A stretch of DNA of 64,000 bases from Bacillota bacterium. GTDB taxonomy: Bacteria > Bacillota > Proteinivoracia > UBA4975 > VEMY01. The notes beneath the pieces were generated by a model, which was not told where the DNA came from, did no database searches, and worked only from the letters and a program-made list of their open reading frames with translations. The translations under genes and the position numbers were made by a program. The stretch is taken from the NCBI GenBank assembly GCA_009711825.1, contig VEMY01000002.1, positions 1-64,000 of the forward strand. Direction: 5' to 3'. Positions 7,889 through 14,038 of this stretch are shown here, in pieces (the stretch's first letter is position 1; each line of letters opens with the position of its first letter).

Positions 7889-7915
7889 ACTGCCGGCCAC
7901 GCCGGCGGTTTTTTA
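7889..7915 (+). terminator. Rho-independent terminator
   Basis: CTGCCGGC, CAC loop, GCCGGCGG (7890-7908), then TTTTTTATTG. It ends the Asp23 gene. Confidence 0.85.
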
Positions 7916-7983
7916 TTGTGTCTACTTGAGTGCTGTTGCTATCGGTTGTAGCCAGTGATATACTCAAGTTGGAGGTGATACTA

Positions 7984-8546: not shown

Positions 8547-8561
8547 GCGCCCAGAGGCGTA

Positions 8562-8615
8562 TTTTTGTCTCGCGAGGGCTGGTATATGTTTGTACAAATA
8601 CAATTAGGATGTCTA
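8562..8615. repeat. 54-bp direct repeat, left copy
   Basis: Matches 13985-14038 at 48 of 54 positions, same orientation. It contains the perfect palindrome TTTGTACAAA and ends ACAATTAGGATGTCTA. The two copies enclose the IS element and the ABC-transporter operon. The rest of 8547-8678 shows no gene. Confidence 0.8.
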
Positions 8616-8743
8616 TGGTCATCAACATGACGTTTCAGAATAGACGGGAACTAAACAAAGCCCTTCTGCAGAATGATATGCTCCCCTTTGAGTAGACACC
8701 TGAAATAACAAAAATTCAAGACTACGCAAAGGGGAGTATTCTT

Positions 8744-9430
8744 GTGGGAAGAAAGAGTGATATCAGTTATGAGCTGAAAGTCGAGGCCGTTGAAAAATAT
8801 AATCGAGGAGAAGGGTCTCTGCGCAGCATAGCGTGTGAATACGGGATGGATGCTTCCAGCTTACGGCAATGGCTAGCGAATTATGAGGCCATGGGCCCAT
8901 CTAGTCTAGCAGTCACCCATACGAACAACGGATACAGCACCGAACTAAAAACCAGAGCAGTAGAGGCGTACCTCCGGGGGGAAGGAAGCCTCCTTGATAT
9001 GTGTAAGAGGTTTAGCATCCGTAGCAAAACCCAACTTCGGGCCTGGATCAAGGTGTATAATGGTCATAAAGATTTTCGGGCCACTAGAGGCCTAGGGAGG
9101 GGAATCTATATGACCAAGGGGCGGTTGACCACGTTAGATGAGCGGATTGAAATTGTCAGTTACTGTATAGCTAATGGTAAAAACTATGGTGCAACGATTG
9201 AGAAGTATGGGGTTTCATACCAGCAGATATATAGCTGGGTACGCAAGTATGAGTCAAAGGGCGTAGACGGTCTTATTGACAAGCGCGGAAAACGCAAGAC
9301 TCTTGAGGAAATGAATGAGGTAGAACGCCTGCAGGCTGAGAACAAAATGTTAAGAGCCGAGAACAAACAGAAAGAAATGGAGATTGCAGTTATAAAAAAG
9401 CTTCAGGAAATCGAAAGGAGGCGGGGCTAA
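8744..9430 (+). CDS. IS3-family transposase OrfA (HTH protein)
   Basis: 228 residues with three consecutive helix-turn-helix units (YNRGEGSLRSIACEYGM, YLRGEGSLLDMCKRFSI, CIANGKNYGATIEKYGVSYQ) and a C-terminal leucine-zipper-like coiled coil (VERLQAENKMLRAENKQKEME). It binds the IS ends. GTG 8744 follows AAGGGGAG. In-frame ATA AAA AAG at 9392-9400 is the classical -1 frameshift signal that yields the OrfAB transposase. It is longer than most OrfA proteins, as seen in IS150-group members. Confidence 0.9.
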   Translation: MGRKSDISYELKVEAVEKYNRGEGSLRSIACEYGMDASSLRQWLANYEAMGPSSLAVTHTNNGYSTELKTRAVEAYLRGEGSLLDMCKRFSIRSKTQLRAWIKVYNGHKDFRATRGLGRGIYMTKGRLTTLDERIEIVSYCIANGKNYGATIEKYGVSYQQIYSWVRKYESKGVDGLIDKRGKRKTLEEMNEVERLQAENKMLRAENKQKEMEIAVIKKLQEIERRRG

Positions 9431-10317
9431 GCGGCGTCCGTCAGGAAAAGCTTTACCTGACTGTAAAGGAGCTACACGAAGAAAAGGCTTACCCAGTAAT
9501 GAACGTTTGCAAGATATTAGACCTGAACAGGTCATCATATTATAAATGGCTCCACCGCAGCAAAAGTGTCCGCGAAATTGAGAACGAAGATCTGGTCCAT
9601 AAGCTTGGTTATCTCTACGCTGAATTCAATGGGATACTCGGTTACAGACGCCTGACAGACGAACTAAACGTCAGACACAAGAGCAGCTATAACTACAAGC
9701 GTATATATCGTCTTACCCAACTGGTGGGCTTAAAAGCCGTCATCCGTCGGAAACGTCCGCATTACCAGCGTTCTACGCCGGAAGTTACAGCGGAGAACAT
9801 CTTGAATCGTGATTTCACGGCGGAAAAGCTTAACGAGAAGTGGCTGACCGATGTCACAGAATTCAAGTACGGAGATAATGAAAAATTGTATTTGAGCGCA
9901 ATCCTTGACCTCAAAGACAAAGGTATTGTCTCGTTCGCCATAGGTCGTAGAAACAATAATCAGCTCGTATTTGACACCTTTGATTTAGCCGTGTCCAAAT
10001 ACCCGAATGCTCAACCGATGTTTCATAGTGACAGAGGGTTTCAATATACATCTAAGCAATTCAAGACCAAGTTGGACAAGGCGAAAATGAAACAAAGCAT
10101 GTCGCGTGTTGGTCGCTGCATCGACAACGGCCCCATGGAAGGCTTCTGGGGAATTCTCAAATGTGAAATGTATTATCTGGACAAATTCAAGGATTACGAC
10201 ACTCTCGCAGTAGCTATTGAAAACTACATACACTTCTATAATTATGAACGACGGCAAAAGAAGCTCAACAAACTAGCCCCGATGACCTATCGACAATTGC
10301 TCGAAAACGCTGCATAA
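9400..10317 (+). CDS. IS3-family transposase OrfB (DDE integrase domain), made by -1 frameshift
   Basis: After slippage at 9394-9400 the -1 frame reads through ASGNRKEAGLSGVRQEKL into the rve/DDE domain. Catalytic residues are visible: D in WLTDVTEF, D in FHSDRGFQYTS and E in NGPMEGFWGILKCEMYY. An HTH_21-like segment (ILGYRRLTDELN) precedes the catalytic core. An independent start at ATG 9499 is possible but lacks a clear ribosome binding site. The frame is intact, so the element may be active. Confidence 0.9.
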   Translation, partial: ASGNRKEAGLSGVRQEKLYLTVKELHEEKAYPVMNVCKILDLNRSSYYKWLHRSKSVREIENEDLVHKLGYLYAEFNGILGYRRLTDELNVRHKSSYNYKRIYRLTQLVGLKAVIRRKRPHYQRSTPEVTAENILNRDFTAEKLNEKWLTDVTEFKYGDNEKLYLSAILDLKDKGIVSFAIGRRNNNQLVFDTFDLAVSKYPNAQPMFHSDRGFQYTSKQFKTKLDKAKMKQSMSRVGRCIDNGPMEGFWGILKCEMYYLDKFKDYDTLAVAIENYIHFYNYERRQKKLNKLAPMTYRQLLENAA

Positions 10318-10492
10318 AAAGCTGGACCCCATTATGGAGTCCAGCGAAAACAGTTTTCTTTATTTCATCTGTCTACTTGACAGGGGGCAGTTCAGAATAT
10401 ACACAGGAGGGCTTTGCTTCGTCCCACCGGAAACGGATGTTTTTGGAGCAGATTCGATTAAAATCGACATCGAGGTCGCTAGCCCCCTGGCA

Positions 10493-11179
10493 TCAGGTTT
10501 GGACATCGGGGTCCCAGGCCCCATCCAGCATTTTAAAATGTTTTTTGCATTGCCCGGCCAAATCAAGATTATGTGTTGCCAGAAGCAGTGTTTTTCCTTC
10601 TTCAACCAAATCAAAAAGAAGCTTGAGTATTTCTATTCCGGTCTCAGAATCTAAAGAACCGGTAGGTTCGTCAGCTAGGATAACCTGCGGATTATTAACC
10701 AGCGCCCGGGCAATGGCCACCCTTTGGCGCTGGCCGCCGGAAAGGTTTTTGGCCTTTTCCTTGATTTTATCAGCCAGCCCGACCTTCGCTAAAGCATCGA
10801 CGGCCCTTTTTTTACGTTCAATAAACCCCAGCCGCTCATGGCTGTATAACAAAGGGATCTCCACATTCTCCCGGGCCGTGTAGTCTTCCACCAGCGCGAA
10901 ATCTTGCACAACATATCCGTAAAACTTGTTTCTGTATTCGGCCCGCCTCTTATCGGTAAATGTTGTTGCTTCTTTCCCCTGTACATGCAGCTCGCCCCGG
11001 GTAGGCGAAACAATTAAGCCGATAATATTCAGCAAAGTGGTTTTCCCGCAGCCCGATGGACCGGTGACGGCGATACTCTCCCCTTGATTAATATCCAGGG
11101 ATACACCTCTAACCGCATGGGTCTTGCTATTACCCTGAGTATACTCTTTGTGCAATGATACGGCGTTTATCAGTTGCAT
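10493..11179 (-). CDS. ABC transporter ATP-binding protein (MacB/LolD type)
   Basis: 228 residues, one ATPase domain: Walker A GPSGCGKTT (~40-48), Q-loop VVQDFALVEDYTARENVEIPL, signature LSGGQRQRVAIARAL, Walker B VILADEPTGSLD and H-loop ATHN. This is the form that pairs with FtsX-like permeases for peptide or antibiotic handling. Its ATG overlaps the stop of the upstream permease (TAATG) with GAGGAG ahead, so it is translationally coupled. It is the last gene of a four-gene minus-strand operon and ends ~100 bases from the IS right end. The region between is gene-free. Confidence 0.9.
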   Translation of the reverse strand: MQLINAVSLHKEYTQGNSKTHAVRGVSLDINQGESIAVTGPSGCGKTTLLNIIGLIVSPTRGELHVQGKEATTFTDKRRAEYRNKFYGYVVQDFALVEDYTARENVEIPLLYSHERLGFIERKKRAVDALAKVGLADKIKEKAKNLSGGQRQRVAIARALVNNPQVILADEPTGSLDSETGIEILKLLFDLVEEGKTLLLATHNLDLAGQCKKHFKMLDGAWDPDVQT

Positions 11180-12285
11180 TAACCGTCACTCCTCAAATAT
11201 GAAATCAGATCGGTTTTGCTTAACTTAATTACCGGCACTAAGGCCAAGAGTAATGTAAAGGCGAGGGATACCAGCACCAGAGCTGGCAATGGTGGGGGAG
11301 GGGCGGGCATCGGCAATATGTGCGGGGAAATAATAACGGGCGGGGTGACCAGCAGAAAAATATAGATTATTATTCTGGCGTATAATTCGCGCATACCGGC
11401 CCCGCTGAGCAGATGAATGGCATACTCGCGCATGTTGCTGCTCATAAGCTGTAAAATATTTGCCGTAATGCCAAATCCGGTAAATATCAAAGCAATACCG
11501 AAGAAAATAAGGTAAAGTAACGAGCCGTAAAAGATTCCCAGAAAATGTTGCTCGCCATAGGATTGTTGTTTGACCGGGTGTAAAATAAAATTTGATTCTT
11601 CACGCATGGCGATAATGAATTCCGCCAGCTCTGCTCCCCCGGGGTTTATCAGCGTGATGTTGACGATAATTTCCTGCCACAGATCATAACCCCTGAAGTA
11701 AAAATCAACGATTGAACCGGTATCGGCCAGAATGAGCAGTGAGTCGTCCAGGCTTTTCACTTGTCCGAATGTGATGTAGTTCGAACCGGACGGCAACCGG
11801 CTACTTACCGTCAGGGTTTCCCGTTCACGTAGACCAAACTCAATGGTATCGCCCACCGTCAATCCTTCGAGTCGACTGCCTGCAAGCACAATCGGCCCCT
11901 GATTACTTGAAGACTCGAAATTTATGTCATAAACGTCCGCAAAGGCCCCCAAACCGACGACGATATCCATGTCGGGATAACTGTCCAGCCCTATCGATTG
12001 AATCATCGAATAACCGGAGCGTTGTAAATCTAGGATTTCTATCAGCATTTCTTGCGCTTGAGGGGTGGCACTTCGCTGAGCACCTGAATCAAAATCGGGT
12101 GAGAAATAAGTGAGATTATGGTCAGATAGTTTTCCGGCTGCAAACACATATTCGCTGCCATACTGGATCGTGTTGTAATAATAAGAAAAAAGCGCTATTG
12201 AGACAATGAGTTGAAGGGCAAAGAAAATGAAAATAACAGGTCTTTTCCAAATATCTCTCAAGGCAAAACGAAATTGTGTTTTCAT
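11179..12285 (-). CDS. FtsX-like ABC permease (second half-transporter)
   Basis: 368 residues in the MacB/FtsX layout: one transmembrane segment near the N-terminus (PVIFIFFALQLIVSIALFSYYY), a ~200-residue external domain (~45-240), then three C-terminal segments (LLYLIFFGIALIFTGFG, ARIIIYIFLLVTPPVII, PALVLVSLAFTLLLALVPV). The ATG overlaps the previous permease stop by 4 bases. Together with the gene at 12282-13289 it would form a heterodimeric permease driven by the ATPase 10493-11179. Confidence 0.8.
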   Translation of the reverse strand: MKTQFRFALRDIWKRPVIFIFFALQLIVSIALFSYYYNTIQYGSEYVFAAGKLSDHNLTYFSPDFDSGAQRSATPQAQEMLIEILDLQRSGYSMIQSIGLDSYPDMDIVVGLGAFADVYDINFESSSNQGPIVLAGSRLEGLTVGDTIEFGLRERETLTVSSRLPSGSNYITFGQVKSLDDSLLILADTGSIVDFYFRGYDLWQEIIVNITLINPGGAELAEFIIAMREESNFILHPVKQQSYGEQHFLGIFYGSLLYLIFFGIALIFTGFGITANILQLMSSNMREYAIHLLSGAGMRELYARIIIYIFLLVTPPVIISPHILPMPAPPPPLPALVLVSLAFTLLLALVPVIKLSKTDLISYLRSDG

Positions 12286-13289
12286 ATCAACCCCGCCCCG
12301 TTTTTCCAGTAATTTTGCAGTTGAAAGGCAAGCAGGAAGAGAAGAACGCTGCTAGCAACAGTAACGCCGATGACGCCGGCGAACAAAGAAATGTCGATAG
12401 AATCGCGGTAAAACGAGTGGAACACACCATAAAATAATAGTGTCCCTAGCAAAGCACCGGTAATGACAGAGGGCAAAGTGTTTGTTAAGACCCGGGCCAA
12501 GATGCTCCTCTTGGTAGCCCCGAACCGGTGGTGTATTGAAAAAATCCTTGCTTGCCTGGAGATCAAAATGTAGTAAACCAAGAAGCTGTTGAAAAACAAA
12601 AAGAGCACTCCGAAAATCATAGGCGCGTATGGAACTCCCGACGCCATTGAATGTAGAGCCGAACCCATGCTGTCCGGAGGGGGCAGATAATCAACTGTAT
12701 AATCGTTTTCGTTCAACAAAGAGACGATTGGTTGGATGCTATCAGATTCCCCGGGGAAATAATAGGTGCCCTGCACGTCAGCTATGGCAAAAAAAATCTC
12801 TATTTTATCGTGCTGAAGGGTGTGGAGCGGGTGCTCTCGATCATATACTCCTCTAACCGGAGCCCACTGCCCGCCTACGATGGTGACCCCATCGCTAAGC
12901 ATGTCATGGGCGGAGGAACCGGCCTTAATCAGCACCGCGGAGGCTTCGGGCATAAAATCGTCTCGTTCCAGGTATCCACCTTCAACCAGGGGTTCTTCGC
13001 CATATATCCCCGCCGGATCATACAAGGCAAGTCTATTGTAGGTCTCATAGATCAAAAGGGTGTCACTCTCTTGGACCAGATCGAAAATTGAGGACAGTAA
13101 ATCCTGCGCTTCGTCGGGTTCAATGTAATCATGTTTATACACGTTTATCGCCGTATAATTATCGCCGAAACCGAAGGGCGGAACAGTAAGAGCCTGGAGC
13201 CTTACGTCCGTGTACATCCAATATACCGAGAGGGCGCATGCCAAAAATACACTGACCAATGCGATCAGGAGATAATTTTTTCTTGTCAT
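12282..13289 (-). CDS. FtsX-like ABC permease (first half-transporter)
   Basis: 335 residues. One N-terminal transmembrane segment (NYLLIALVSVFLACALSVYW), a large external domain (~30-225) and three C-terminal segments (MIFGVLFLFFNSFLVYYILI, VITGALLGTLLFYGVF, GVIGVTVASSVLLFLLAF). The start chosen is the ATG of MTRKNYLL at 13289, because GAGGAG precedes it by 9 bases; an upstream ATG (13340) in frame has no such site. It differs clearly in sequence from the second permease. Confidence 0.75.
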   Translation of the reverse strand: MTRKNYLLIALVSVFLACALSVYWMYTDVRLQALTVPPFGFGDNYTAINVYKHDYIEPDEAQDLLSSIFDLVQESDTLLIYETYNRLALYDPAGIYGEEPLVEGGYLERDDFMPEASAVLIKAGSSAHDMLSDGVTIVGGQWAPVRGVYDREHPLHTLQHDKIEIFFAIADVQGTYYFPGESDSIQPIVSLLNENDYTVDYLPPPDSMGSALHSMASGVPYAPMIFGVLFLFFNSFLVYYILISRQARIFSIHHRFGATKRSILARVLTNTLPSVITGALLGTLLFYGVFHSFYRDSIDISLFAGVIGVTVASSVLLFLLAFQLQNYWKNGAGLI

Positions 13290-13365
13290 CCATTTGCACT
13301 CCTCTATTGACAAAATAAAAGCCACCCGTTGCCCATTCATGCTACTTACTTATTTGCTCTACTTG

Positions 13366-13755
13366 TCAGTGATCCACGCTTAATGGCCAAGCAGTTCCAT
13401 GGGGTATCCAAGTAAAGTTATAGTTGAATGTAACTGGTGGGTGTGCTGGATTTGGATGATCAAGGTAAGTCATACTGTTACTACGAATTGTGCTGTCATG
13501 TGGACTTTGGCCAACACTTGTATATCTCCATTGTTCTCCGGTTAAGCCATTGCGGTATACAAACCATCCTTGATAAGCATGGGCTCCATTTTCAATGTAT
13601 GAAGATTGAATTTGAACATATCCATTAAAATATAATTGGACATGCTCTGTGCTGGTAGCGAAATTCGGGCTGCTTGCTAGAGCTGGTGTTGTAAAAAAGA
13701 ATATGCATAGTAACATGATTATGCTGCCGGTAATTTTAAGGATAGTTGATTTCAT
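13366..13755 (-). CDS. Small secreted protein, possible peptide cargo of the ABC operon
   Basis: 129 residues with a clear signal peptide (KSTILKITGSIIMLLCIFFFT then TPALA-SS, cleavage near residue 28). The mature ~100 residues have no cysteine and are rich in Tyr, Trp, His and Asn (SSYIENGAHAYQGWFVYRNG, FNYNFTWIPHG). ATG 13755 follows AAGGAGGGATATTA. It is the first gene of the operon with two FtsX-like permeases and an ATPase, an arrangement seen in bacteriocin or peptide-immunity systems. No known bacteriocin family was recognised. It could also be a sensor or substrate protein. Confidence 0.65.
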   Translation of the reverse strand: MKSTILKITGSIIMLLCIFFFTTPALASSPNFATSTEHVQLYFNGYVQIQSSYIENGAHAYQGWFVYRNGLTGEQWRYTSVGQSPHDSTIRSNSMTYLDHPNPAHPPVTFNYNFTWIPHGTAWPLSVDH

Positions 13756-13984
13756 TAATATCCCTCCTTTCTTGATAACTAATGTAAATGGCAACGAGTG
13801 GAAGAAGCTAATTATTTTAATTCTAGAAATATTGCGCCATTAATGCAAGCCATCAAATCCCCTAAAATACTTGGAGTATAGGTAAATACCTTGGTGCAGC
13901 AGTCCTTAACTCCTTATAGCACAATTATGCTGGTTATTGTCAGCAAATCAGGTAGTTGCTCTGGTTAATCTTTCCATTACAGTG

Positions 13985-14038
13985 TTTTTGTCTCGTGGGG
14001 GCCGGCATATTTTTGTACAAAAACAATTAGGATGTCTA
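13985..14038. repeat. 54-bp direct repeat, right copy
   Basis: 48/54 match to 8562-8615 in the same orientation, containing TTTTTGTACAAAAA and ending ACAATTAGGATGTCTA. The gap 13756-14100 otherwise holds no gene; it should carry divergent promoters for the secreted-protein operon and the amidohydrolase pair. Confidence 0.8.

Follow-up and report, generated by a model that had tools for sequence, protein, structure and literature searches.

The window analysed here, the first 64,000 nucleotides of contig VEMY01000002.1 of a Bacillota bacterium (GCA_009711825.1), carries on its minus strand a four-gene operon in which a small secreted-protein gene is followed by the genes of permease A, permease B, and an ABC ATPase. 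What is new here is a recurrent unnamed protein family, represented by the small protein, within a known type of arrangement. By analogy with lactococcin-972 cassettes, we regard the operon, with moderate confidence, as a mobile, bacteriocin-like cassette that comprises a putative bacteriocin-like secreted protein and a dedicated self-protection ABC transporter.

All four minus-strand reading frames of the original prediction are present in the window (Table 1). The small gene starts with an ATG at 13755, preceded by the AGGAGG site. The genes of permeases A and B overlap by four nucleotides (ATGA) and those of permease B and the ATPase by one (TAATG), which points to translational coupling of the three transporter genes. 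Met18 (13289) is most likely the start of permease A, to judge from a GGAG site before it and from a nearly invariant start at this place in relatives. With this start, the gap between the small gene and permease A is 76 nt, making it very likely that the small gene is co-transcribed with the three transporter genes, and the predicted tight coupling of the four genes is borne out by the two overlaps and this short gap. No Rfam elements were found near the operon, and promoter-like sites at the operon did not rise above chance. The locus showed neither a regulator nor a further immunity gene, and PADLOC returned generic ATPase matches only.

Table 1. Features of the operon and its surroundings (window coordinates).
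Feature	Coordinates	Strand	Description
57-nt direct repeat, left copy	8559–8615		Bounds low-GC segment
IS3-type insertion element	8690–10380	+	HTH protein 8744–9430; DDE transposase 9499–10317
ABC ATPase	10493–11179	-	228 aa; LolD/MacB type
Permease B	11179–12285	-	368 aa; FtsX/MacB type; 4 TM; distant relative of permease A
Permease A	12282–13289	-	335 aa from Met18; FtsX/MacB type; 4 TM; ORF extends to 13340
Small secreted-protein gene	13366–13755	-	Leads the operon; 129-aa precursor; signal peptide ~27 aa; mature ~102 aa
AGGAGG ribosome-binding site of small gene	13763–13768	-	From sequence
57-nt direct repeat, right copy	13982–14038		Bounds low-GC segment

The small-protein precursor starts with a signal peptide of the normal Sec type, without a lipobox, with cleavage predicted between ...TTPALA and SS. 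Its mature chain is rich in aromatic residues, and the secreted leader protein of about 100 residues is as had been anticipated. The description of this protein as cysteine-free holds for the mature window member, in which the sole Cys of the precursor is lost with the signal peptide, and fails for the family, since almost every relative carries a single conserved Cys, in the segment GYVQCQPSY; the window member has Ile where the relatives commonly have this Cys. The motif of the family is GY[VI]QCQPSY...HAARG...GE...T..G....D..I......Y.F.W. None of 12 family members has a match in Pfam or NCBIfam, and the profile built from these 12 found none in Pfam, NCBIfam, or the PDB sequences; no catalytic or wall-binding domain was recognised by Pfam or NCBIfam. 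Five sequences did not suffice for a usable AF2 model of the window protein (pLDDT 44.6), so the fold was taken from the relative L056, whose mature part, modelled with a 14-sequence alignment, is confidently predicted to be all-beta with six strands (pLDDT 85.6, pTM 0.77). A Foldseek search with this model against PDB and BFVD gave no match at E 0.001 or better, the best PDB match being IrmA with E 0.059. The modelled fold is best described as a beta structure without proven affinity, and the earlier assignment of the protein to no recognised family withstood these sensitive profile and structure searches, which yielded neither a Pfam or NCBIfam entry nor a significant fold match.

Comparison of related loci gives dN/dS values of ~0.04–0.22 for the small gene, indicative of purifying selection, and its dN is below that of both permeases in four of the five pairs. 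Over nine loci, the distances of the small protein correlate with those of the two permeases (Mantel r 0.55 and 0.62, p ~0.001), compared with 0.9 among the three transporter genes, so that the small protein and its transporter have for the most part moved together, though less closely than the transporter genes among themselves.

The search for the same gene set in other genomes, proposed with the original prediction, found the small-protein family at 15 loci in scattered Bacillota (the window, G009, G011, G145, G029, G198, G246, L054–L059, G332, and G430, with G332 and G430 carrying divergent forms of the family). Permease A is the next gene after the small gene at all 15, and on contigs that are neither cut short nor masked there, permease B and then the ATPase come next. 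Among 13 genomes of the class, G009 and G011 have the small gene next to permease A, and G010 has a deletion remnant of it, fused to a fragment of permease B. A profile search of 300 genomes of the phylum gave matches in nine (5 of 215 genera), a count that includes one discarded weak match, and matches in another class were found in five of 391 genomes. The genome-contig scan records come from Peptococcaceae and other Bacillota MAGs, Tissierellaceae, Oscillospiraceae HV4-5-C5C, Clostridiaceae JG1575, and Clostridiales DTU032; one 4.6-kb contig with the family is binned as Paludibacteraceae, possibly wrongly. No relatives of the small protein were found in the viral contigs, plasmids, and phages searched, and a pattern scan of the genome contigs for permease A gave no match. 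Recurrence of the gene set in order at many loci, together with the low dN/dS of the small gene, argues that this is not a chance arrangement.

Three weak matches were discarded: one inside a 631-aa fibronectin-like protein (G068), one to the signal peptide only, at a contig edge (G531), and one with E 0.39 inside another gene (G000:C11). In G492 (L069 4236–5761), a 212-aa secreted protein has a C-terminal domain that resembles the small family. The protein encoded next, of 295 aa, contains a MacB periplasmic core domain, with no adjoining FtsX domain or ATPase; this is possibly a different version of the same theme. Radical-SAM-like genes with CxxxCxxC motifs adjoin two of the operons (L068 1–2473 in G332, and L056 1–500) and may conceivably be linked to peptide maturation.

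Several copies of the cassette are broken. The copies in G029 and G304 contain an in-frame TAG and an in-frame TGA, respectively; the small gene is truncated in L058, and permease B is disrupted in G430. These copies come from single draft assemblies, and some of the breaks may be assembly errors. Two close operons (G003 and G005) and two more distant ones (G528 and G400) have no small gene. The original prediction had held that absence of the small protein from homologous ABC operons would speak against it; such operons do exist, and they also fit immunity-only remnants. Remnants of this kind are known in pneumococci, where scbBC occurs in 27.5% of genomes (PMC11796350). The patchy spread, together with the broken and transporter-only copies, is circumstantially the pattern expected of toxin–immunity loci with immunity-only remnants. 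The distant operon of G528 (L085 1717–4946) consists of two 4-TM permeases, an ATPase that clusters weakly (83/78) with those of lactococcin-972 cassettes, and an extra gene, first considered as YxeA-type and then assigned to DUF3139.

The segment 8559–14038 is AT-richer than the window. The GC content is 0.40 in the small gene and 0.46–0.49 in the other cassette genes, compared with 0.57 in the adjoining amidohydrolase and RND genes and 0.55 in the window. The two copies of the 57-nt repeat that bounds this segment are 88% identical, ~5.4 kb apart, and the only two in the whole genome. The repeat contains the palindrome TTTGTACAAA, and its right copy lies just upstream of the amidohydrolase gene. 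The two copies may mark the limits of an insertion, or they may stem from duplication of a regulatory region. The operon in G009 is also bounded by a direct duplication (~420 nt, 97–99%); around the operon of G198, the repeat is 92 nt long (82%). The duplications in G009 (L011 4578–4996 and 10011–10574) correspond to the 5' part of a DUF362-like gene, and their spacing of 5.4 kb is near that in the window. The IS3-type element, the ends of which are approximate and were judged from inverted AGTAGACA...GAAATAA-like sequences, lies within the bounded segment ~110 nt past the ATPase stop and is a neighbour with no part in the function of the cassette. The terminal sequence of the IS3 element (TTTTTTATTGTGTCTACTTGA) occurs a third time ~780 nt to the left of the element, at 7909–7929, possibly as a solo end.

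Both permeases share a topology of one TM helix, an outer domain of ~200 aa, and three further TM helices, and they are related to each other by profile comparison. Taken one by one, they match Pfam FtsX with E 2.3e-5 and 0.0021, both just under the Pfam cut-off; the prediction of two distinct FtsX-type half-transporters is thus weak for each protein alone, and gains support from the topology and from the match of the permease A profile to MacB (5gko, E 2.6e-4). In the ATPase, the Walker A (GPSGCGKT), signature (LSGGQ), and Walker B (ILADEP) motifs are intact. It scores 210 bits against the LolD model, below the equivalog cut-off of 307.75, and also falls below the FtsE cut-off. The 4-TM permeases with an outer domain between TM1 and TM2 and an FtsX-like C-terminal region, their mutual relatedness, the MacB profile match, and the LolD/MacB-like ATPase identify the three proteins, at the level of sequence, as a heterodimeric type VII (MacB/LolCDE-like) ABC transporter. 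Unlike MacB and LolCDE, which it resembles in the large outer domains, FtsX C-terminal region, and LolD-like ATPase, this transporter operates without an outer membrane, its cassette has no MacA-like adaptor gene, and it is linked to a small secreted protein; unlike in MacB, the ATPase is encoded by a separate gene.

FtsX-type transporters serve as mechanotransmitters for extracellular wall enzymes, as in FtsEX with PcsB or CwlO, and the cassette likewise places an FtsX-like permease and an FtsE-like ATPase beside an extracellular protein. The small protein might be a wall-binding or regulatory partner, activated or positioned on the surface of the producer by the FtsX-type heterodimer, with no antagonism involved. 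Its high conservation and its divergence correlated with that of the permeases would agree with such a role. We nevertheless consider this unlikely, since a very patchy distribution and frequent decay are ill-suited to a housekeeping envelope function and Pfam and NCBIfam recognise no catalytic or wall-binding domain in the partner. The cassette also differs from FtsEX in its heterodimeric permeases, in a partner without a hydrolase domain, and in an ATPase below the FtsE cut-off. Another possibility is that, once the signal peptide has been cleaved, the small protein is moved through the membrane or released from it by the transporter, in an extraction like that of LolCDE or MacB, whatever the role of the protein outside. 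The invariant pairing at 15 of 15 loci and the MacB- and LolD-type parts agree with this proposal; the normal Sec signal peptide without a lipobox, the lack of a MacA-like adaptor gene, and the transporter-only operons in G003 and G005 make it rather improbable.

The closest counterparts of the operon are the lactococcin-972 cassettes, defined here by PF09683 with DUF1430/TIGR01654 and TIGR03608 and represented by lcn972 of pBL1, streptococcin B (scbABC), and mediterrocin (mdc). Both have the gene order secreted protein, permease, ATPase, and in both the first gene encodes a small beta protein (predicted in our family) with a Sec signal peptide, unmodified in the Lcn972 type; no maturation enzymes are encoded within our cassettes. 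With the order and topology of the genes matching and the small gene preceding permease A at every locus, the likeness to bacteriocin and immunity cassettes noted in the original prediction holds. Transporter-only loci are likewise known for lactococcin 972 (scbBC, PMC11796350). The DUF1430 permease, in contrast, is one fused 8-TM protein (1+3 / 1+3 TM with outer domains) where the present cassette has two 4-TM proteins, and the mature small protein of ~102 residues compares with 66–89 in lactococcin 972 proteins, to which it has no sequence relation. Lcn972-type proteins, which are Sec-secreted and unmodified, may be as little as 18% identical to Lcn972, as in mediterrocin (PMC12345188). Their downstream genes (orf2–orf3 in the lcn972 cluster, PMC4055356) are taken as immunity genes (PMC4055356, PMC12345188), and for mediterrocin it was likewise argued that a protein with a Sec signal peptide has no need of an exporter of its own (PMC12345188); it was stated in 2024 that no experiment had verified the functions of B and C (permease and ATPase) in any such locus (PMC11796350). 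Both arrangements coexist within the phylum of the window: G025 (L033 2764–6140) has a regular lactococcin-972 cassette, the permease of which is a fused protein of 734 aa.

The small protein was not accepted as a member of the lactococcin 972 family (PF09683). None of the 12 family members matches PF09683 or the corresponding NCBIfam model, comparison of the family with six and then 12 Lcn972 proteins by hhalign gave probabilities under 1, and profile alignment with shuffles gave z ~1, with no signal. As to the fold, Lcn972 (2LGN) is a beta sandwich and the L056 model is all-beta with six strands, but 2LGN is absent among the 50 fold matches listed for that model, none of which reaches E 0.001. 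The transporter stands apart as well: TIGR01654 scores 15.5 bits against the cassette permease (cut-off 189), TIGR03608 scores 206 bits against the ATPase (cut-off 254.85), and in the ATPase tree a single supported branch (96/87) separates the split-permease cassettes from those of Lcn972. A derivation of permeases A and B from a DUF1430 protein cut in two is undemonstrated, because the global profile similarity is weak (permease A with the N-terminal half, probability 69.5; permease B with the C-terminal half, 36), is not half-specific for permease A (C-terminal half, 67.8), and is accompanied by this separation of the ATPases. True but extremely divergent lactococcin 972, with ancestry shared with PF09683 and a permease in two pieces, is therefore very doubtful, despite the identical cassette order, the 4+4 TM compared with 8 TM, that weak similarity, and the low identity of accepted members. 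The resemblance is architectural, and "works like" lactococcin 972 is the best analogy.

According to the bacteriocin-like reading, the small protein would be exported by its Sec signal peptide and leave the cell unmodified, its mature part would fold into a compact aromatic-rich beta structure, and it would act on neighbouring cells, probably at a conserved target of the envelope. The main job of the transporter would be self-protection, with the small protein removed from the target, or kept off it, at the outer face of the membrane. We infer the antibacterial activity, the target, and the protective role of the ABC proteins from several features taken together: the small gene directly before permease A at 15 of 15 loci; the gene order and membrane topology shared with lactococcin-972 cassettes; a Sec signal peptide, with which a dedicated exporter would be unnecessary; the sparse distribution (9 of 300 and 5 of 391 genomes); decay (G029, G304, L058, G010, G430) and transporter-only operons (G003, G005); and a low-GC segment between unique direct repeats, with similar boundaries in G009. 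Three observations count against this reading: many toxins diversify, whereas the conservation of the small protein equals or exceeds that of the permeases; sequence comparison revealed no relation to a known bacteriocin; and the locus has neither a regulator nor a second immunity gene that could be found. The lack of the small gene in G003 and G005 could equally mean that the transporter has a role of its own.

We can speculate, with some hesitation, that the family may form a new bacteriocin class, Sec-secreted, unmodified, and of beta fold, which has no common descent with lactococcin 972 and acquired its heterodimeric MacB-type protection ABC transporter independently. If so, self-protection by this kind of pump would have arisen by convergence in two toxin families, and the extracellular targets of both would probably be of one type, for instance a precursor of the cell wall. 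In any case, an unnamed secreted-protein family with a fixed partner transporter joins the small group of lactococcin-972-like arrangements, and its two-gene permease and compact cargo make the question of immunity or export directly testable. As bacteriocin-like cassettes, such operons would reveal antagonism loci, undetected by the family models searched here, in uncultured anaerobic Firmicutes.
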